A stretch of DNA of 34,309 nucleotides from a virus: IMG/VR virus record IMGVR_UViG_3300042371_000974, positions 1 through 34,309 of that record. One strand, written 5' to 3'. The position numbers were made by a program, and so were the translations under genes. How positions within the stretch are numbered: the first letter of the stretch is position 1; every line of letters starts with the position of its first letter. Below the pieces are notes generated by a model that worked only from the letters and a program-made list of their open reading frames with translations, searched no databases and had not been told where the DNA came from. Positions 5,421-19,763 of the stretch are shown here, piece by piece.

Positions 5421-6422
5421 ATGCCCTACGCCCCGACCGTCAACGATAACTCCGGCCAGATCCTCGCCCAAGGCATCAACCAAGGCATCGCCGGCCTGGC
5501 CGATGGCATCCAGCGCAGCATCCAAGAGCGCAAGAAGAAGGAGGAGGAGCGCCGCGCCAAGGAAGCCGTGAACGCTGCCGGCAAGGGCCTCTTCGGCGAA
5601 GACTTCGACGTGAAGGACGCCAAGCCCGAGCAATACCCCCTAATTATCCAGTTCGCGCAGCAAAAGAAGGAGGAGCCGATGCGCGCGCTCGTGCTGGAAA
5701 ACGAAGGGTTGAAGCAGCGGATTTCCCAGTCGCAGCTCGACCAATACGCCGTGGCCGCCGAGCAGCAGGCGCGCAACCAAGCCGCGCTGCGCGGCGCGTT
5801 CAACCCGACCACGGGCACCGCGCAAGCCATCCAAGGCGGGGCCGATTTCCAAAACCTGCCCGGCCCGAACGCGATGGATGCCGAGTCGGCGATGCGCTAC
5901 ATGGGCGCCCAGGGCGCCGACGCCGCCACGCTGCAAAATTACAGCCAGACCGTCGAAAACATGGCGCAGGCCAAGCAGCGCAGCCAGCCCAAGCCCGAAC
6001 GGCGCCCCGAGCTCGTGGATCTCGGCGGCGGGGAAACCGGCGTGTGGGATGGCGTCAATTTCTCGCGCACGCCGCGCCCGTCCGCTGGCAGCCGGACCGA
6101 GGCCGATCAAGTCACGGCAATGGTGGCCGCGCTCAAGCAGGCCGAAGCCTCCGGCGATAAGGCGACCGTCACCGCGATGACCGACGCCCTCAAGAAGCGC
6201 ACGACGCAAAACCCGAGCGAGCTCGCGCAAGCGTTGGCGATGGTGGCCACGGGCGGCCTTGGCGGCATGGGCGGAAAACCGCCGGCCACCCCTGCGCCGC
6301 CGGCCGCACCAAGCCAAGCCCCTGCGGCCAAACCTGATTTCTCGGCCTATGAGGGCAAGCGCGTCAGGGGACCGGACGGCGCCACCTACCTCGTCAAAAA
6401 CGGCCAGCCCATCAAACAGTGA
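5421..6422 (+). CDS. Coiled-coil virion-associated protein
   Basis: A 333-residue protein. The N-terminus (GQILAQGINQGIAGLADGIQ) is followed by a strongly charged helix (IQERKKKEEERRAKEA) and predicted coiled coil to about residue 120. A low-complexity Pro/Ala linker comes near residue 280. The C-terminal module (YEGKRVRGPDGATYLVKNGQPIKQ, residues about 310-333) resembles short SH3-like tails in phage virion proteins. It overlaps the giant protein gene by GTGA, suggesting coupled translation. The role is probably an internal virion or ejection protein, inferred from order and composition; I recognise no named family. Confidence 0.6.
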   Translation: MPYAPTVNDNSGQILAQGINQGIAGLADGIQRSIQERKKKEEERRAKEAVNAAGKGLFGEDFDVKDAKPEQYPLIIQFAQQKKEEPMRALVLENEGLKQRISQSQLDQYAVAAEQQARNQAALRGAFNPTTGTAQAIQGGADFQNLPGPNAMDAESAMRYMGAQGADAATLQNYSQTVENMAQAKQRSQPKPERRPELVDLGGGETGVWDGVNFSRTPRPSAGSRTEADQVTAMVAALKQAEASGDKATVTAMTDALKKRTTQNPSELAQALAMVATGGLGGMGGKPPATPAPPAAPSQAPAAKPDFSAYEGKRVRGPDGATYLVKNGQPIKQ

Positions 6423-9400
6423 GCACCGCCACCCTGCCGCAAGGCTGGAGTCTCCTCGACGAACCGCCCGCTGGGTTGCCCGAAGGCTGGGCCCTCGCCG
6501 AACCGGAGAGCAAACCGCTCACGGCCTCGCGCGTGGCCGAGCTGGCGGGCGATGTGGCGGCCGAAGCCGGCGGCGCCACCGCGGGGCAGATGCTCGGCCT
6601 GGCGGGCGGGCCCTTTGCGCCGGTCACGGTGCCGCTGGGCGGCTTCATCGGCGGCGGGATCGGCAACACCATCGCGCAAGGCCGGCGCATGGCGCGCGGC
6701 GAGCAAGACGGGTTTCAGCTCGGTCAACTCCTCGGGGCGGCGGGCATCTCCGCCATCCCCGGCGGCCAGGTCGCCAAAGGCGCCACCGTGGCCGGGCGCA
6801 TCGCGCGCAGCACGGCCGTCATGGGTGGAGCCGGTGCCGCGGGCAACGTGGTGCAGCAAGTCATCGACCGCCCCGAGGGCCAGCCCTTCGATGGCGCGCA
6901 AGTCGCTACGGCCGGCGCGCTGGGTGCGGCCGGCGGCGCCCTCGTGCAAGGCGGCATCGAAGGGTTTAAGGGGCTCGCCGGTCTGTTTCGGCGCACGCCG
7001 CCGGCCGCCTTCGACGCGGCCACGCCGGAGGAAGTCATCGCCGGCATCGCCAAGGCCGAAGGCCTGGCGCCGAGCGAGGTCGAGCGCCGCATCGCGCGCG
7101 CGCGCAACGTGACGCCGCGCCCGCCTGCGCCTGAATTGCCCGCCGGGGCCCGCGTGGGCCAGCTCGACGGCCCGCCCGCGCAACTCGCCCTGCCCGAAGG
7201 GTGGAGCCCCGTGCCCGTGCCGGCCGCGCAAGCCGACCTCGACGCCGCTCTCGCGCGGCAAGCCCGGCCCAGCGCGCCAGAAACCCCCTCTGCTCCCGCC
7301 CAGGTCGCCCCGCCCGAGCCGCTTCCGGCTCCCGTGGACAACGCGCCGGTGGGGGCGCTCCCTCCCGCCGCGATTGATTTCGCGCCACCGGTGCCGGCTG
7401 ATAAGGTGTCGGCGCCACAAGTGCCGCCTATCGCGGCGGGCTCTTTGCCGCCCGCGGGCCAACGCCCTGAGCCTTTGTTTTTGGATCTCATTTCCGGCCG
7501 GATTGATACGCCGGAGGTCGATTATTACATGCGCCAGCGCATGCAGGGAGCGGAAGAACGCTGGGCTAAGCTCTCTCCCCAAGAGCGGGCCGCCGCACAC
7601 GCCGAATTTGGCACGACCAATCCGCGGTTAATCGAGCAAGGCTCGTTTCCCTACGATTCAACGCCTTCGCGTTTCTCTGAAATCGTCGGCTCGATCGAAG
7701 CCATCCGCACGCCTGCCGCAGCACCGGCAAACCGGCCGCCCGAGCTTTCGTTGGATCAACAGCTCACCGCGGCCGAGCTCGCCGCCGCGCGCGCCACTTC
7801 ACGTTTTCGCGAAGCTGGAAAATGGTCCGAACTAAAGGGCCAAAATGCCCGCCAACGGTGGCAAACGCTCAAATCGCAAAAGCTCGATGCCGAGCGCAAC
7901 CTCGAAGACCTGCGGAGTAAAGCGGACCAAGCGATACCGGCCCCCCGCCTGCCCGAGCCGGCGCCCTTGGCGGCCCCGGCCCAGACTTCCGGCGTGAACC
8001 AGGCGCCGAACGTCGGAGACACAATAACCAAGCCCGCAGTCGGCGGTGCGCCAGAGGTAGCCCCGGCCGCCCCGACAAGCAAGCCGGCAATCACCTTGCC
8101 CGATGCCGCCACGGCGCAGACGTGGGCCTCGCGCAATGCCGACCGGTTCAAGAGCGTGACGATCCGCGAAAACCCGGCCGGCGGGTTCGACGTGTTCACG
8201 GTTTCCAAGGGCTCGAAGTTTGCTTTCGGCGCCCGGCCCGACGGTGGCACCGACATTATCGACATCATCCAATCGCTCGGCGGCGTGCCGCCGCCCCCCA
8301 AGGGCGCGACGGGTGGCGAGTGGGATGGGTTTGGCGAAGTGTTCGGCGGCCAAGCGCGCATTTTAATCAACGCGAAGAAACGCGGCGTCGGCCTCGACCA
8401 ATTCCTCGGCAACTTCAGCGACACGGAATTTGCCTACCTGGCCGGCGACCCCGATGGGTTCAAGCAAGCGGTGAGCAATGCCCTCGCCGAGCGCGCGCGC
8501 CTCAAGATCGCCAACACCCTCGAAGAAAACACGGCCAAGTTTCAGACCGCCATCCTCACCGGCAAAGGCCGCGGCGGCAAAGAGCCGAAGGCCGGCACGA
8601 AGGACATGAGCGACAACCTCATTCCCGGCGACAAATTGGCCGTGAAGGGTGAGCCGTTGATTGTGACCGGTGTGGACGATGACGGCAACGTGACACTCCA
8701 AGACGGCCCGCGTTTCGGCACGCAGATCATCCCGCCTGGCGTGGAAATTTACCCCGACGCGCGAAGCATGAAGAAGCTCCCGCGCGAAACACCCCCGGCA
8801 AACACCGGCCCGCAGAGCGACGATCCGTTTGGCGATAACTACGTGCCCGAACCCGACGTGCCCGCGGCGCCGCCGGCCGCGCCCGGCACGCAAGCCGACC
8901 TCGTAGCCGGCATCGAGCGCCAAGCGGCGGCGCCGAGCAGCGGGTTAAAAACCCAAGCGAATACGTCGCACGCTGGAAAGTCGCCGCGGGAACTACTGGA
9001 AATGGCCGCTGCCTACGAACAATACGGCCCCGGCTATGATCGCAATGTTGCCACATCCGCGGGGAGATTGCGGCAGGACATCGAACGAAACTCGAAGGGT
9101 ATTCAATTTAGTGCCGACGAGCTGGCTGTGCGGTTGGATTTGTATGCCGCAAAACCGGCGCCGGCTCTCACGCTCGAATCCGCCAGCGTGGGCCAACAGG
9201 CGGCCGAAGCCCAGGCCGCGCGCGAGGCGCAACTCGTCGCCAAGCGCCGCGCCGACATGCTCGCCGCCAACGAGCGCCCGCTCACCGGCGACAGCTCCAA
9301 CGTCAACCAAGGCCAGCTCTACGCCGAAGATGCCGACATGTTCTCCGGCGCGAGTGCGCAGGAGGTGGCGCAGCGGCCGGCGAAGCCCGTCGCAAATGAC

Positions 9401-12400
9401 TCGGCTATCGCGACAATTCTAAACGACTACGACCGAAGCACCGTGTCCGAATACCGGCCGGTGACTCGCTCGGAAACGCGCGGCTCAGATGGAGAGTGGT
9501 ATAGTGCCGCCGGCGGGCGCTCCCACCGTGTCGGCCTGACCAACGAAACGCGCGAATATTGGGTAAACGAATCTATCAGCCAGGGCACCACCCACGGAAA
9601 ACGGTTTTCAACCAAGCAAGACCTTGAGGCATGGAACGCGAAAAACGCGGCCGATAACCGAGCGGATTTCGAGAAGGAATTGCGGTCGATGCCCGCCGAT
9701 CGCATCGCCTCACAAGCTGAATATTGGGCCAATGAGAAGGCCCGCGTCGATCTGCGCAACGCACCAATCAGCGACCCGCCGCCGCCGGTCCTGCCTGAGA
9801 TTTACACGATGAGCCGCAAGGCCAAGATCGAAGAACTCAAAGGCTACGGCATCACCGAAACCCGCACCGGCGGCTATACCCGCAACAGCGTTTCCGCCGA
9901 TTTGAGCGACATGCTCGAACAGGCCCGCCGCAAGCGGGCCAGCCAGCGCGGCGCCATCGACCCCGCCGTGATGCGCGCCGTGGGGTTTGCCGCTGCGCGC
10001 GGCGTGGCCGGTGCCGCCGTGGGCACGCTCTTGGCTGATACACCCGAAGAACGCGCGGGCTATGCCCTCGCCGGCGGCCTGCTCGGCGTGTCCGCCAGCC
10101 CCGCCCTGGCCAAGATGCTGGGCCGCGCGACGTTTTCCACTACGTCCGTCGGCCGGCGCGCGTTTCCCGAGGCCACGATCCCGTTCGACCTCCGCGAGCA
10201 ACTGATCCTCAAGCCCGGTGCCGTGGCCGCCACCGGCCACCGCGGCAACAATGCCCAGCGCGCCCTCGAAATCACCCTGCGCAAAGAGGCCAATCCCACC
10301 GCCGCGGCCAATGAAGTCTGGCAATTCCTCACGGCCAAGATCCCCGCCGTGCGCCCGAGCCTCGCCGCGCCCGCCACCGAAGCGCGCGCCGCGCTCGACG
10401 AACTCTCCGACAAGCTCATCATCTCCGGCCTCGCGACCGGCACTCTCGCCGATACAATCAACGCCAACAAGGGCAGCTACCTCCGGCGCGCGTTTCGTAT
10501 CTTCCAATCCCCCGGCTGGCGCCCTGAGCAAAAGGTGATCGACGACTGGCAGGCGGCCTACCTCGCGGCCAACCCGAAGAAGACTGCGCAGGACGCGCAA
10601 GACCTCGCCCTCGAACTCCTCGACCGCCGCAACGCCGAAGAGTTTGTGATGACGGGCTCGCTCCTGCGCCAGAATCGCGACTCGTTCAGGCCGCGCAAGG
10701 CCCTCGACGCGCCCACGCTCGCCCTGCTGGGCGAAATCACCGAGCCGGTCGAACTCCTCGGCCAGACCGTGCCGCGCATGGCCCGCCTGATCGAGACGCA
10801 CGAGACGCAAAAGAACCTCGCCCGCATCGGGCAGCAGATGGGGCATTTCTCGCCGCAGTCCGAGCCGAGCCTCGGCCATATCGTGCAGCTCGCCAAGGAC
10901 GCCGACGCTCCGGCCGTGGGCCCGCTCGCCGGCCTCTGGACGACGCCCGAACTCCGCGAAGCCCTCGAAGCCGCCACCGCCGGGCAGAGTGAACAAAGCC
11001 TCGTCTGGCGCACGCTCGCCGGCGCGACGACGCTCGCCAAGTTTTCCAAGACCGTGCTCAACCCCGAGAGCTGGGTGCCGAACGGCATCGGCGCCGTGGT
11101 CGATGGGCTCAAGAACGGCAACGTGCGCATCATGGCCAACGGCCCGGCGTGGAAGGATGCCGTGCTCGTGGGCCTCGAAGAACTCGGCACCGGCTGGAAT
11201 CCGCAGACTCCGGCCGGCCGTGCCACCACCGCCGCCATCTACGCCAAGATGCAGCGCCTCGGCCTGGCTGGGCAGGGCAGTAGCGCGGATTTCCAACGCG
11301 GCCTCGAAATGGCCTGGGGCGAGACCACGCAACGCGGCGCCAAGCGCACGATGCTCACCCTCGGCCGCTCCTACGCCTCCAGCGAAAACGTCATGCGCTA
11401 CATGTGGTTTCAGGCCGAGAAGGCCGCCTACCGCAAAGCGTTTCCCCGCATGGCCGAGGCGGAACTCGAAGCCTACGCCGCGCGCGTAGTGCGCAGCACA
11501 ACCACGAACTACGCAATGATCCCCGAGACGTTGCGCAAAGCCTCGACGGCCGGCATCCTCGGCACGTTCGTCAATTTCCCCTACGAACAATTCCGCCACG
11601 CCTTCAACATCGCGCGCATCGCGAAAGAGGACATGACCAAGGGCGCGGCGACGAACAATCAGGCGCTCGTGGCCGTGGGCGCGCGCCGGCTGGCCGCGTT
11701 TCTCGCTGCCGCGGCCGGCACCGGGGCCGTCGCGGCGTGGTCGATGCGCAAAGAGGGGATCAGCCCCGAGCAAGATGCGGCCTACCGCCGCCGGTTCGCG
11801 CCGTGGGACCGCAACCAATCGCTCATCTACCAGGGCCGCGAGGGCGACAACATCGCCTACATGAATCAAAGCTACGTGAACCCGCAAGCCGTGCTTCTGG
11901 CGGGCGGCTCGGCCGCGGCGCGCGGCGAATCGCTGGAGCAGGCGGCCACCAACTTCTTGAAGGCCGGGCAAGAGACGTTCGGCGGGGGCAGCGTGCTCCT
12001 CAACCCCGGCCTCGAAACCCTGCTGAACCGCACCGAGCGCGGCCGGCAAATCTCCTCGCCGGAAGACAGCGCGGCCAAACAAGCCAACGACCGCATCTCC
12101 TACCTGGCGGATCGGGCTTACAGCCCCGGCTTCCTGAACAGTCTTTCGCGGATCGCCAAGGGTTACAAAGGTGAAACCGGGCCGGATGGTCAGGTGTACA
12201 CGCTCGGCGATGCGATGCAGCGGCTCTTTGGCCGGCGCATTAACCGCGTGAATCTGCCGTATCGGTTTGAGCGCGAAGCCTTCGACATGTCTCGCCGCCT
12301 GGCGGAGGTCCACAGCAGCTATGCCGGCGTGCGGCGCCGCGAAGAGGCCAACGCGCCCGAGAAAGTCGATGCCGCCTACCAAATCGGCGAGCAACGCCGG

Positions 12401-12868
12401 CAAGTCGTGTTCAAGGATCTGACGCAATACATCGCCGATGCGCGCGTGCTCGGCTACGACGAGGAGAAAACGGTGGGGTGGCTGCGCAAGGGTGGGGTGC
12501 CGGCCGAAATCGCGCTGGGTGCGCTAGAGGGTCGCTACACGCCTGGCGAACGGCTGCACGCCAAGACCGGCGCCGAGTTGCTCGCGGAGATCCGCGCAAA
12601 ACCGGCGGCCGAACAGCTCGGCGCGTTTGTGGCGGAGGTCACGAAGAACCCGGCGTTTATTGCGACGGTCAAGGGGGCGATGCTCGACGACGCGCGCGGG
12701 GTGACGCAGCGCGACAAGCTCGTGGCGGCGCTCGATCCTGACAAGCGGGCGGCCTATATCCGGCTGCGGATGGGGGAGCAGAGCGAGACGCAGCGCCTGG
12801 AGTATTTGCACGAGCTGGCCCGCAAACGGCTCCTGACGCCGGAAGTGGTGCGGCAGATGGTGAAGTGA
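6419..12868 (+). CDS. Giant polyvalent internal virion (ejected) protein, 2149 aa
   Basis: It starts at a GTG that overlaps the previous stop (GTGA). Two short Gly-rich units (LPQGWSLLDEPPAGLPEGWALAEP type) open the protein. A glycine-rich hydrophobic segment follows at about residues 57-90, then a long Pro/Ala-rich linker. Small globular modules resembling large polyvalent protein (LPD) domains appear near 560-630 and 730-785. A membrane-active Gly/Ala segment lies near 1180-1235. The helical C-terminal region includes SKTVLNPESWVPNGIGAV (about 1540), NFPYEQFRHAFNIARIAKE (about 1717) and a hydrophobic helix at about 1756-1776. This layout fits giant ejected proteins of podovirus-like phages that travel with the DNA. 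No peptidoglycan-cutting motif is clear. Confidence 0.75.
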   Translation: MSTATLPQGWSLLDEPPAGLPEGWALAEPESKPLTASRVAELAGDVAAEAGGATAGQMLGLAGGPFAPVTVPLGGFIGGGIGNTIAQGRRMARGEQDGFQLGQLLGAAGISAIPGGQVAKGATVAGRIARSTAVMGGAGAAGNVVQQVIDRPEGQPFDGAQVATAGALGAAGGALVQGGIEGFKGLAGLFRRTPPAAFDAATPEEVIAGIAKAEGLAPSEVERRIARARNVTPRPPAPELPAGARVGQLDGPPAQLALPEGWSPVPVPAAQADLDAALARQARPSAPETPSAPAQVAPPEPLPAPVDNAPVGALPPAAIDFAPPVPADKVSAPQVPPIAAGSLPPAGQRPEPLFLDLISGRIDTPEVDYYMRQRMQGAEERWAKLSPQERAAAHAEFGTTNPRLIEQGSFPYDSTPSRFSEIVGSIEAIRTPAAAPANRPPELSLDQQLTAAELAAARATSRFREAGKWSELKGQNARQRWQTLKSQKLDAERNLEDLRSKADQAIPAPRLPEPAPLAAPAQTSGVNQAPNVGDTITKPAVGGAPEVAPAAPTSKPAITLPDAATAQTWASRNADRFKSVTIRENPAGGFDVFTVSKGSKFAFGARPDGGTDIIDIIQSLGGVPPPPKGATGGEWDGFGEVFGGQARILINAKKRGVGLDQFLGNFSDTEFAYLAGDPDGFKQAVSNALAERARLKIANTLEENTAKFQTAILTGKGRGGKEPKAGTKDMSDNLIPGDKLAVKGEPLIVTGVDDDGNVTLQDGPRFGTQIIPPGVEIYPDARSMKKLPRETPPANTGPQSDDPFGDNYVPEPDVPAAPPAAPGTQADLVAGIERQAAAPSSGLKTQANTSHAGKSPRELLEMAAAYEQYGPGYDRNVATSAGRLRQDIERNSKGIQFSADELAVRLDLYAAKPAPALTLESASVGQQAAEAQAAREAQLVAKRRADMLAANERPLTGDSSNVNQGQLYAEDADMFSGASAQEVAQRPAKPVANDSAIATILNDYDRSTVSEYRPVTRSETRGSDGEWYSAAGGRSHRVGLTNETREYWVNESISQGTTHGKRFSTKQDLEAWNAKNAADNRADFEKELRSMPADRIASQAEYWANEKARVDLRNAPISDPPPPVLPEIYTMSRKAKIEELKGYGITETRTGGYTRNSVSADLSDMLEQARRKRASQRGAIDPAVMRAVGFAAARGVAGAAVGTLLADTPEERAGYALAGGLLGVSASPALAKMLGRATFSTTSVGRRAFPEATIPFDLREQLILKPGAVAATGHRGNNAQRALEITLRKEANPTAAANEVWQFLTAKIPAVRPSLAAPATEARAALDELSDKLIISGLATGTLADTINANKGSYLRRAFRIFQSPGWRPEQKVIDDWQAAYLAANPKKTAQDAQDLALELLDRRNAEEFVMTGSLLRQNRDSFRPRKALDAPTLALLGEITEPVELLGQTVPRMARLIETHETQKNLARIGQQMGHFSPQSEPSLGHIVQLAKDADAPAVGPLAGLWTTPELREALEAATAGQSEQSLVWRTLAGATTLAKFSKTVLNPESWVPNGIGAVVDGLKNGNVRIMANGPAWKDAVLVGLEELGTGWNPQTPAGRATTAAIYAKMQRLGLAGQGSSADFQRGLEMAWGETTQRGAKRTMLTLGRSYASSENVMRYMWFQAEKAAYRKAFPRMAEAELEAYAARVVRSTTTNYAMIPETLRKASTAGILGTFVNFPYEQFRHAFNIARIAKEDMTKGAATNNQALVAVGARRLAAFLAAAAGTGAVAAWSMRKEGISPEQDAAYRRRFAPWDRNQSLIYQGREGDNIAYMNQSYVNPQAVLLAGGSAAARGESLEQAATNFLKAGQETFGGGSVLLNPGLETLLNRTERGRQISSPEDSAAKQANDRISYLADRAYSPGFLNSLSRIAKGYKGETGPDGQVYTLGDAMQRLFGRRINRVNLPYRFEREAFDMSRRLAEVHSSYAGVRRREEANAPEKVDAAYQIGEQRRQVVFKDLTQYIADARVLGYDEEKTVGWLRKGGVPAEIALGALEGRYTPGERLHAKTGAELLAEIRAKPAAEQLGAFVAEVTKNPAFIATVKGAMLDDARGVTQRDKLVAALDPDKRAAYIRLRMGEQSETQRLEYLHELARKRLLTPEVVRQMVK

Positions 12869-12907: not shown

Positions 12908-13186
12908 ATGAATCCGAAGCTGATGGCGTGGGGGCTGGCCGTGAGTGTGGCGGGGAACGTGGCGGCGGTGGGGTGGTGGGTGCGCGGGCGGGCGAGTGAG
13001 GCGGGAAGCGCGGCGCAAGTGGGCCGGTACACGTTTGCGCAGCAAGGCGGGAGCGTCACGCGGTGCGACACGATGACGGGCCGGGTAGAGGTGGCCGCAA
13101 CAGTGGCGGGAAAGTGGCAACTGATCGAAGTAATATCCGCCCAAAATCCGCCCATCGGCGGCGGATTACCTCTCAGAGAGCCATAA
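12908..13186 (+). CDS. Small membrane-anchored protein
   Basis: A 92-residue product from ATG at 12908; a GTG at 12884 would add eight residues. An N-terminal hydrophobic segment (MAWGLAVSVAGNVAAVGWWV) is followed by positive residues (RGR), indicating a single membrane span or signal anchor. The rest is small and soluble, rich in beta-branched residues. It is the last gene of the rightward late unit, and its final codons overlap the leftmost putative integrase arm sites at 13135-13155. A spanin-like or superinfection-exclusion role is possible, but nothing specific is visible. Confidence 0.55.
   Translation: MNPKLMAWGLAVSVAGNVAAVGWWVRGRASEAGSAAQVGRYTFAQQGGSVTRCDTMTGRVEVAATVAGKWQLIEVISAQNPPIGGGLPLREP
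13135..13155 (+). repeat. Putative integrase arm sites, left (two 9-bp repeats)
   Basis: ATCCGCCCA occurs at 13135-13143 and 13146-13154, spaced 11 bp. The whole 21-nt block is repeated exactly at 13337-13357, on the other side of the tRNA-like core. A degenerate inverted copy (CGGCGGAT) lies at 13159-13166. The arrangement matches arm-type sites of tyrosine integrases, although this block also encodes the end of the small membrane protein. Confidence 0.65.
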
Positions 13187-13196
13187 AAACAGGGGC

Positions 13197-13233
13197 GTCA
13201 AAGTCACCTGTGCTACCATTACACCATCGGGCA
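13197..13233 (-). other. attP: Putative attP core: 5' half of tRNA-Gln(UUG)
   Basis: Read on the minus strand, 13233 to 13197 gives a 7-nt acceptor strand, U8, a 4-bp D stem around the loop AATGGTA (A14, G18G19 and A21 in place), a 5-nt anticodon-stem strand and the 7-nt loop CTTTGAC. Anticodon TTG reads Gln codon CAA. The sequence then departs from tRNA: the 3' anticodon strand, T arm and acceptor 3' strand are missing. A tRNA fragment beside a phage integrase gene is typical of an attachment core, but use of the 5' half is less common than the 3' end. Lack of host genes suggests an unintegrated attP. Confidence 0.7.
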
Positions 13234-13265
13234 AAATCTCAGTGGTAAACCGCCTGTTTCATAGG

Positions 13266-13296
13266 AGAATATGCAGTTTTAGAGGGTGTTAGTCAA
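13266..13296 (-). promoter_or_regulatory. Putative promoter facing the tRNA-Gln half
   Basis: On the minus strand, TTGACT (13296-13291) is followed after 17 nt by CATATT (13273-13268); TATTCT at 13271-13266 is an alternative. It points at the tRNA-like core, about 33 bp away. After integration at this core, phage DNA would replace the native upstream region of the host tRNA gene, so a phage-borne promoter would be needed to keep it expressed. Confidence 0.4.
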
Positions 13297-13312
13297 CTCC
13301 GTATTCACCCGT

Positions 13313-13357
13313 TTTTGGGCGGATTTCGGGCTTGAAATCCGCCCAAAATCCGCCCAT
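13313..13357 (+). repeat. Putative integrase arm sites, right: 14-bp inverted repeat plus direct copies
   Basis: TTTTGGGCGGATTT (13313-13326) and its exact reverse complement (13335-13348) form a perfect 14-bp stem with an 8-nt loop. The 9-mer ATCCGCCCA occurs inverted at 13316-13324 and direct at 13337-13345 and 13348-13356, the direct pair again 11 bp apart. The last 21 nt duplicate the block at 13135-13155. The hairpin could also shape integrase mRNA translation. Confidence 0.7.
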
Positions 13358-13366
13358 GGGTTTTTC

Positions 13367-14629
13367 ATGATCCCCGAACTGCTGGCGCGGGCCTTGGCGT
13401 CCTCTTCCCCTGTTCGCCTCAACTCCATGGCCGCGGAGTATGGGCTTAAATCCGTCGGCGGAGTGTGGTGGGTGCGTAAAAGTGTTACCCATCCAGTCAG
13501 CCGCCAGGAGCGCCAATTTAAGAAGTCGACCAAGCGCACGGATCTGCGCGACGCGCTCGCCGTGGCCGTGCCCTGGGTGGACGGTTGGCTGGCCGAGGTG
13601 CAAACCGACCGGGCCGAACCGCTCGGCGTCAAACGCGAGTGGGCCACCCTCGGCGAGGTGGTGGATTTTTATCTGACGTGGCCGAACGGCCGGCAGCACA
13701 CCCGCGACCGTTGCGCGCGCGAGCTGGGCACGATGGCGGGGGAGTGCTGGCCGGATCGGGAGTGGCGCGGCATCTCCACCGAAATGCTTACGCGCGATGA
13801 GCGCCTGAAATGGCGCCAGGCGCGCGAGCTCGCCAGCGCCAAGGCGCATTTGCCGGCCGACGCCGAGGCGCACGAGCGGACGAAACGGAATATCAATCAA
13901 ATGATCGCCAACACGAGCGGGGTTTTCTCGCGGGCCGCGCGCGAGGCCTATCACATCGCGGGTATCCGCGTACATGATGCGGTGCTCGGCTGGCTCGACG
14001 TGCGGAAACTCAAGGCGAAGCCGGCCGCGCCGCCCGAACCGCTCGGCGATGCCGTCATGGCGAAGATTGCGAGGGAGTTGCCGGGCTTGAAGGAGCGCGC
14101 GCCGGGGGCGTGGGCCGCGGTTATGCTCATGTTTTTCGCGGGTGTGCGGAACATTGAGGCCGTGGCGGCGCGGTGGAGTTGGCTGGGTGAGGTGGAGTTG
14201 GATGACAGCGGCGAAGAGGTGCGGGGGTTCCGGCTGGAGTCGGCCGGCGAGCATCTGAGCAAGCAATCCGATGGCCTCGTGCCCGTGCGCGTGGCGGTCT
14301 GGAAGGATCTCGCGTCGGTGCGCCACCTGGGGCAGAAGGGGGAAGATTTTATCGTGCCGGGCGCGACTGTCACGGCGCGGATCGAGGCCGCTTACTATGA
14401 GGCGAGCGAGTTTTTGAAATCGTGCGGCGTCGAGAAGCGGCGCGGCAAGACGACGTATCGGCTCCGCGGCAAGGCGATTTCCCTGATGGGTGCGCTGTAT
14501 GGCGACAAGGCCGCGGCAAGGTATGCGCGGCACAAGGACGAGAAAACGACGCGCGAGAATTACACCGGCACGCGCGCGGCGTTTGTGTCGATGCCGGCGA
14601 TGGCCGGCGCCGCGGTGGCCGAGAAATGA
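13367..14629 (+). CDS. int: Tyrosine recombinase, phage integrase
   Basis: About 420 residues from ATG at 13367; a GTG at 13286 is in frame, but its extra codons run through the putative arm sites, so I prefer the internal ATG. The catalytic domain carries MFFAGVRNIEA (first catalytic Arg), a YRLRGKAISLMGALYG segment where HxLRH is usual (Arg kept, first His replaced by Tyr), and RYARHKDEKTTRENYTG with His and the nucleophilic Tyr. The N-terminal part (to about residue 190) is a helical core-binding domain. It stands beside the putative attP and converges on the leftward operon. No clear Shine-Dalgarno precedes either start. A divergent member, but confidently a tyrosine recombinase. Confidence 0.88.
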   Translation: MIPELLARALASSSPVRLNSMAAEYGLKSVGGVWWVRKSVTHPVSRQERQFKKSTKRTDLRDALAVAVPWVDGWLAEVQTDRAEPLGVKREWATLGEVVDFYLTWPNGRQHTRDRCARELGTMAGECWPDREWRGISTEMLTRDERLKWRQARELASAKAHLPADAEAHERTKRNINQMIANTSGVFSRAAREAYHIAGIRVHDAVLGWLDVRKLKAKPAAPPEPLGDAVMAKIARELPGLKERAPGAWAAVMLMFFAGVRNIEAVAARWSWLGEVELDDSGEEVRGFRLESAGEHLSKQSDGLVPVRVAVWKDLASVRHLGQKGEDFIVPGATVTARIEAAYYEASEFLKSCGVEKRRGKTTYRLRGKAISLMGALYGDKAAARYARHKDEKTTRENYTGTRAAFVSMPAMAGAAVAEK

Positions 14630-18472: not shown

Positions 18473-19009
18473 TCACGATCGAGGGCGACGGGCGCGGGCG
18501 TTGGCGGCCTCGATCGCCAGGCGCTTTTTAGTGCTCGCCAGGTCGGCCGCAAATTGCGCAGCAGGGGCAGCAGGGGCAGCAGGGGCAGCAGGGGCAGCAG
18601 GGGCAGCAGGGGCAGCAGGGGCAGCAGGGGGAAAGGGGGACGAGGGTGAGATAGTTCCATCAAGAATCCGAATATGCTCGGCCGCCGATCCACGGGCCAG
18701 CGACTCCCAGAGCTCCAAAAGGAGCCGCTCCAATAATGCCGGCTGATCGACCTGGGCGGCCCGCAGCAGCGCGCCGAGCTGCGCCGCGATCCGCGGCCGG
18801 TAGAGCGACGCGAGCCGCTCCAGGATGTCGGGTTGCACGCCGCTCGGGCGGGCGCCGGCCGCGGTCACGTCGGCGAGGGCGAGGCGGCGGAGGTAGGCGC
18901 TCGCGTTGCCCTCGGCGACCTCCGCGGCGCGGGCATAAATCACGGCCTGAAGCTCGGGGTCAGCATGAAAGCCGACGAGTTTGGAGAGTTTGGCGGGTGA
19001 TGCGGTCAT
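18473..19009 (-). CDS. Ribbon-helix-helix-like protein with Ala-Ala-Pro linker
   Basis: A 178-residue protein, first gene of the leftward operon, divergent from the early region across a 77-bp gap. The N-terminus (KLVGFHADPELQAVIYARAA, then GNASAYLRRLALADV) has the strand-helix-helix look of CopG/MobC-type DNA-binding proteins. A helical region follows (PALLERLLLELWESLARG). Then comes a run of Ala-Ala-Pro units encoded by the 9-bp tandem repeat at 18558-18629, and a basic C-terminus (ARARRPRS). By position it is the best candidate for the lysogeny-side repressor or plasmid-like regulator, possibly acting at the palindrome at 19073-19087. Confidence 0.6.
   Translation of the reverse strand: MTASPAKLSKLVGFHADPELQAVIYARAAEVAEGNASAYLRRLALADVTAAGARPSGVQPDILERLASLYRPRIAAQLGALLRAAQVDQPALLERLLLELWESLARGSAAEHIRILDGTISPSSPFPPAAPAAPAAPAAPAAPAAPAAPAAQFAADLASTKKRLAIEAANARARRPRS
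18558..18629 (+). repeat. Eight perfect 9-bp tandem repeats
   Basis: GCAGCAGGG is repeated eight times without error. In the leftward gene it encodes an Ala-Ala-Pro linker between helical parts. The 9-bp unit keeps the frame whatever the copy number, so slippage would only change linker length. Confidence 0.9.
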
Positions 19010-19308: not shown

Positions 19309-19536
19309 ATGGTCGCCGCTGCGGCATTTTTTCGCGAGCTGACCGGGCCCGGCCTGCCGTGCCGGCTGCCAGGTGCGGCCGACGTGCCGGCGCCGCTTTG
19401 TTTCCGCGAGGTCGTGCAGCACCCGGCCGGCGGGTGGACAATCGCCGAGCCCATCGACGCGACCCAATGGGCCGCGCGGATCTACCGCGGCAACTGGCCC
19501 ACCTACGGCGCCGCGCTCGCGGCCCTCGACCTATGA
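19309..19536 (+). CDS. Small early hypothetical protein
   Basis: A 75-residue protein starting three bases after the previous stop and overlapping the next gene by ATGA. It shows PCRLPGAADVPAPLCFREVV and GWTIAEPIDATQWAARIYRG, a compact mixed fold without membrane or metal motifs. No family recognised. Tight spacing on both sides supports expression with the early operon. Confidence 0.5.
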   Translation: MVAAAAFFRELTGPGLPCRLPGAADVPAPLCFREVVQHPAGGWTIAEPIDATQWAARIYRGNWPTYGAALAALDL

Positions 19537-19763
19537 GCGCGCCAAAGATCCGTGAGGCGGAGCAGTTTTATTCCCTGGCGCAGGTGTCGCGGCTCGTGGG
19601 CGTGCAGCCGGAGCGGCTGTCAGCTTTGGCGATGGAGGGCAAATTTCCGCCGGCCGCGGTCGTGGTTCCTGGCGGCGGTCACAAGGGCCGCCGGTGGACT
19701 GCCTCGCAACTGGCCGCGCTCGTGCAGGCATGGGCCAACCCACTTGCGCCGGCTCAACGCTGA
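19533..19763 (+). CDS. MerR/excisionase-like small DNA-binding protein
   Basis: A 76-residue protein with ATG overlapping the upstream stop. FYSLAQVSRLVGVQPERLSA is followed by LAMEGKFPPAAVV, a basic turn (GGGHKGRRW) and a recognition-like helix (TASQLAALVQAW). This is the winged-helix layout of AlpA/Xis-type proteins. It may be the recombination directionality factor for the integrase at 13367, or an early regulator; the family fits both. I see no extra domain. Confidence 0.6.
   Translation: MSAPKIREAEQFYSLAQVSRLVGVQPERLSALAMEGKFPPAAVVVPGGGHKGRRWTASQLAALVQAWANPLAPAQR

Follow-up and report, generated by a model that had tools for sequence, protein, structure and literature searches.

A candidate phage attachment site made from the 5' half of an Opitutaceae tRNA-Gln gene, with a host-type promoter proposed for the rebuilt gene

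Insertion into tRNA genes is a common event. Islands catalogued in Islander carried a 3' tDNA fragment in 3760 cases and a 5' fragment in 159, and crossover was located in the anticodon in 2083 of about 3919 islands (PMC4383910). It is very rare for a rebuilt bacterial tRNA gene to lose its own promoter, and in archaea the pTN3-like integrases work with the 5' half of the tRNA and provide the promoter (PMC8371274). The DNA analysed here is a whole virus record of 34,309 bases (the window), with capsid, terminase, DnaB-like helicase and tail fibre genes. Its initial annotation had described a core ending in the anticodon loop as less common. Only part of this agreed with the Islander counts, in which crossover at the anticodon was common and use of the 5' side was rare. 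We considered, with a probability of about 0.9, that the region was the attP of a temperate Opitutaceae phage, in which exchange would take place in the anticodon loop and tRNA-Gln would be rebuilt by the phage 5' half under a phage promoter. From sequence, we infer here that recombination occurs, where the strands are cut, that the arms are bound and that the promoter is active.

We focused on the core of the site, positions 13233-13197 on the minus strand, which reads TGCCCGATGGTGTAATGGTAGCACAGGTGACTTTGAC. A 36-base pattern starting from its second base was used for an exact scan of 84,980 bacterial and archaeal genomes. Five contigs were matched, all with the label Cephaloticoccus, Opitutaceae or Verrucomicrobia. 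Each time, the pattern opened a complete tRNA-Gln(UUG) gene. Within this genome set, the exact match was found only in the tRNA-Gln(UUG) of Opitutaceae (Verrucomicrobiota). The core was identical, letter for letter, to the first 37 nt of this gene in the five metagenome-assembled genomes (MAGs). This was consistent with the initial annotation, which had read the stretch as a tRNA-Gln 5' half through the UUG anticodon loop, and a host tRNA-Gln(UUG) sharing 13197-13233 does exist. When two of the exact-match genomes were scanned with mismatches, one such gene per genome was found. ARAGORN called no tRNA in the window, a contig that may be incomplete.

The borders of the identity were informative. 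In 5/5 MAGs, the block was 37 nt long and ran from the first base of the tRNA to the last base of the 7-nt anticodon loop, with no further identical host base on either side. Selection for an intact tRNA probably maintains the left border, and the crossover the right one. The loop itself, CTTTGAC (13197..13203, minus strand), lies at the block end and is the probable overlap between the strand cuts. In the host attB, this loop is flanked by the 5-bp stem symmetry GGTGA/TCACC. By this anticodon-stem symmetry, GGTGA at 13204..13208 (minus strand) is a probable core-type integrase site on the tRNA side. Its probable partner on the phage side is GCCCC at 13192..13196 (minus strand), where attB has TCACC, and GCCCC was invariant in a related phage contig, L003.

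The core pattern gave one other match in viral contigs, which was this contig of 30,181 bases. Read in reverse, L003 was collinear with the window for about 30 kb, and it shared the window's core, flanks and arm pairs. The two were nearly invariant in the core and in the roughly 70 bases that follow it. In the 41 to 110 bases before the core, identity fell to 43-55%, and the arm pair beyond was conserved again. Degenerate patterns of the core, arms and flanks also returned only L003 from the viral contigs, so the attachment site is known from two phages only. An assembly chimera of phage and host tRNA would be possible for one metagenomic contig in isolation. However, the same junctions were present in the separate contig of this diverged relative, which already contradicts a chimera and leaves it a negligible probability.

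In the window, the site sits between a gene of 2149 aa, which is followed by a small ORF, and the integrase gene at 13367. The 2149-aa ORF (6419-12868, plus strand) had no Pfam match and was mostly conserved in L003; it may encode a large virion or polyvalent protein. Phage genes were found on both sides of the site in the window and in L003. This meant that neither contig was integrated and that the site was an attP, and it confirmed the earlier statement that no host DNA is adjacent, which had suggested an unintegrated attP. Two other genes of the window were also recorded. A PAPS reductase-like gene (PF01507; 4183-5001, plus strand) lies inside the phage structural gene region. An ORF of 178 aa (18476-19009, minus strand) contains an Ala/Pro repeat run (AAPAAPAAP), and its shorter kin in L003 (6790-7275) is without the long Ala/Pro run.

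It was also considered that the core could be a remnant of host DNA, left by imprecise excision or transduction, with no working attachment site. Such a remnant would fit with the presence of a partial tRNA gene only and with the fact that no lysogen was seen. However, no host base was carried beyond the tRNA on either side, and a randomly captured piece of host DNA would hardly be bounded by the first tRNA base and the loop end. In addition, two phages share the site beside the integrase with identical arm spacing. A host remnant was thus judged very unlikely.

The gene next to the site (13367..14629, plus strand) encodes a divergent tyrosine-family phage integrase of 420 aa, which was assigned to the PHROG integrase family phrog_1 with an E value of 1.7e-13. 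Its ATG at 13367 is 11 bp past the right arm pair, and the core is 134 bp upstream of this ATG. The protein was 84% identical between the window and L003. In the two-row alignment, R261, R367, H389 and Y399 were placed by eye and were invariant, and the position of the box II His was occupied by Tyr364. The integrase gave no match against Pfam and had no solved relative at the sequence level, and its AlphaFold model was unusable with a pLDDT of 36. Searched alone against viral contigs it gave no match, and the two-row alignment found only L003. Against Opitutales genomes, only weak distant matches were obtained. A candidate excision factor (recombination directionality factor) was found further downstream at 19533..19763 (plus strand). 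This MerR/HTH_17-like protein of 76 aa was matched weakly to the excisionase/regulator family phrog_66 (E 7e-4) and to HTH_17 (E 0.0012, falling short of the curated cut-off).

The DNA around the core carries repeats that suggested arm-type sites. The exact 21-nt direct repeat at 13135 and 13337 and its 9-mers spaced by 11 bp, both reported in the initial annotation, were confirmed. The 9-mer ATCCGCCCA has six copies in 34 kb, where 0.58 would be expected, and five of these copies are in the attP region, at 13135, 13146, 13337 and 13348 on the plus strand and at 13316 on the minus strand. The plus-strand copies form a left pair (13135..13154), which had the same 11-bp spacing in L003, and a right pair (13337..13356), also 11 bp apart and kept in L003. 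The distance from the left to the right pair was exactly 202 bp in both phages, with diverged DNA between them. These results suggested that the two phased pairs flanking the core are probably arm-type sites bound by the integrase. The remaining copy (13316..13324, minus strand) is within an inverted repeat, 13313-13327 / 13334-13348, in which every base is paired. This repeat had been described as 14 bp long; it does exist, but it is 15 bp long and was not conserved in L003. Because L003 lacks the inverted 9-mer copy, this copy is probably not essential to the site.

Since the rebuilt gene would be cut off from its native promoter, the phage would have to carry a host-type promoter. A candidate, TTGACT-17-CATATT, was found at 13268..13296 on the minus strand, aimed at the half tRNA gene. 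The window and L003 shared the form TTGAC(N)-17-CANNTT (TTGAC(T/C), then CATATT or CACTTT), and in both phages the -35 box started 63 bases before the core. TTGAC and CA..TT were thus conserved in an otherwise diverged stretch. In the case of the host, TTGAC was present in 58/58 distinct tRNA-Gln upstream regions examined, 30-75 bases before the tRNA, and the hexamer after it was mostly CA...T. With a matrix trained on the host, the promoter site ranked first of 60,278 positions in L003, and in the window the phage's own site was outside the top five. In a general consensus scan it was the sole promoter-like site in 900 bp of the window, and it ranked in the top four over the 34 kb. The agreement with the host pattern gave good but not conclusive reason to propose that the phage brings a host-type promoter for the rebuilt tRNA-Gln.

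The same promoter-like site could be explained in another way. The half gene might be a transcription unit of its own, giving a short RNA of the tRNA-Gln 5' half, for example a decoy for an anticodon nuclease, with the attP located elsewhere. The conserved site does point at the half gene, and a weak hairpin followed by TTTTT is present at its end. However, as a candidate terminator this hairpin was rejected, as it was no better folded than shuffled sequences (z -0.15) and no terminator was called on the minus strand. Such a role would not call for conserved arm pairs or for an integrase next to the half gene, and a block that ends precisely at the anticodon loop suits a crossover. A short RNA was therefore regarded as highly improbable, and the attP reading was retained.

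Under the attP reading, the adjacent integrase would bind both phased pairs of arm sites as well as the core sites in the anticodon stem. Strands would then be exchanged between attP and the host tRNA-Gln(UUG) gene over the 7 bp of the anticodon loop. With the first 37 bases provided by attP, a complete tRNA-Gln gene would form at one prophage end, composed of phage upstream DNA, the phage 5' half and the host 3' half. Its predicted sequence is CACTGAGATTT, the tRNA-Gln 5' half and TCACC. The other end would retain the host promoter and an orphan 5' half, with the predicted order of host promoter, half gene and GCCCCTG. The predicted attL and attR, proposed earlier for a tRNA check, were constructed in silico and examined with ARAGORN. 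The phage-up/host-down junction gave a full tRNA-Gln(ttg), and the host-up/phage-down junction gave no tRNA. This meant that the rebuilt gene would adjoin the integrase end, without its native promoter, and in a lysogen it would be driven by the promoter at 13268..13296 (minus strand). The attP interpretation of the initial annotation was thus supported by the host tRNA-Gln, the conserved arm spacing, the adjacent integrase and the simulated rebuilding. In the lysogen, tRNA-Gln(UUG) would be under a phage promoter between arm sites, and the integrase or other phage proteins might adjust the tRNA supply and so tie growth to the prophage state; we considered this further step unlikely.

Lysogens were searched with a 161-base probe in 252 Opitutaceae genomes, one genome per species. 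The probe detected tRNA-Gln genes in most of them. Prophages in tRNA-Gln, which the initial annotation had suggested as a check, did not appear: among the matches listed, best first, none in these 252 genomes reached the phage flank, and no integrated copy was found in other viral contigs. Since no lysogen was found, integration itself is also what we infer. Several tRNA-Gln copies were considered as junctions and rejected. The extra copies in genomes G460, G420 and G546 were complete genes with TTGAC upstream, and so was a seemingly promoter-less copy in G450. Separately, an Opitutaceae MAG contig (L006, about 2230-2330) had tandem GTATGTGTCCGGT-like repeats right after its tRNA-Gln gene. These could be the arm sites of a different element at that gene's 3' side.

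The arrangement was compared with described systems. As in a usual tRNA attP, an exact tRNA fragment beside the integrase gene predicts the host (PMC3861242). However, a usual site carries the 3' part and keeps the native promoter (PMC8371274 and the Islander counts). The mycobacteriophages with tRNA-dependent lysogeny (PMC10865867) also integrate into a tRNA gene that the cell needs, and the loss has to be made good by the phage. In that case, the core measures about 10 bp and compensation comes from a whole tRNA gene carried by the phage, whereas no tRNA was found in the window of this phage and the target tRNA itself would be rebuilt. The pTN3-like elements of Thermococcus (PMC5495485, PMC8371274) are similar in that attP is a tRNA 5' half, pTN3 sharing 41 bp that reach the anticodon, and in that the rebuilt tRNA is severed from its native promoter, here at the sequence level only. 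In those elements, attP is inside the integrase gene, which is split on integration, and the integrase promoter serves the tRNA (PMC5495485, PMC8371274). In contrast to these suicidal integrases, the integrase gene here would stay intact and points away, and we propose a separate promoter.

The pair provides a clean two-phage example of an uncommon bacterial 5'-half arrangement, in which the phage has to provide the rebuilt tRNA with a promoter, and it makes a testable prediction on tRNA gene expression in lysogens. It also gives a firm host link, to Opitutaceae, for a phage pair that had no match in the phage record collection. Like the 5'-fragment islands of Islander (PMC4383910), the phage targets a tRNA gene, and the 5' part of the rebuilt tRNA would come from the element. 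Compared with those islands as a class, the host gene here is the tRNA-Gln(UUG) of Opitutaceae, and a candidate promoter of the host type can be seen in attP. It is well supported that the site belongs with this 5'-fragment minority and is no new kind; what it adds is the host, which is new, and the candidate promoter visible in its sequence.
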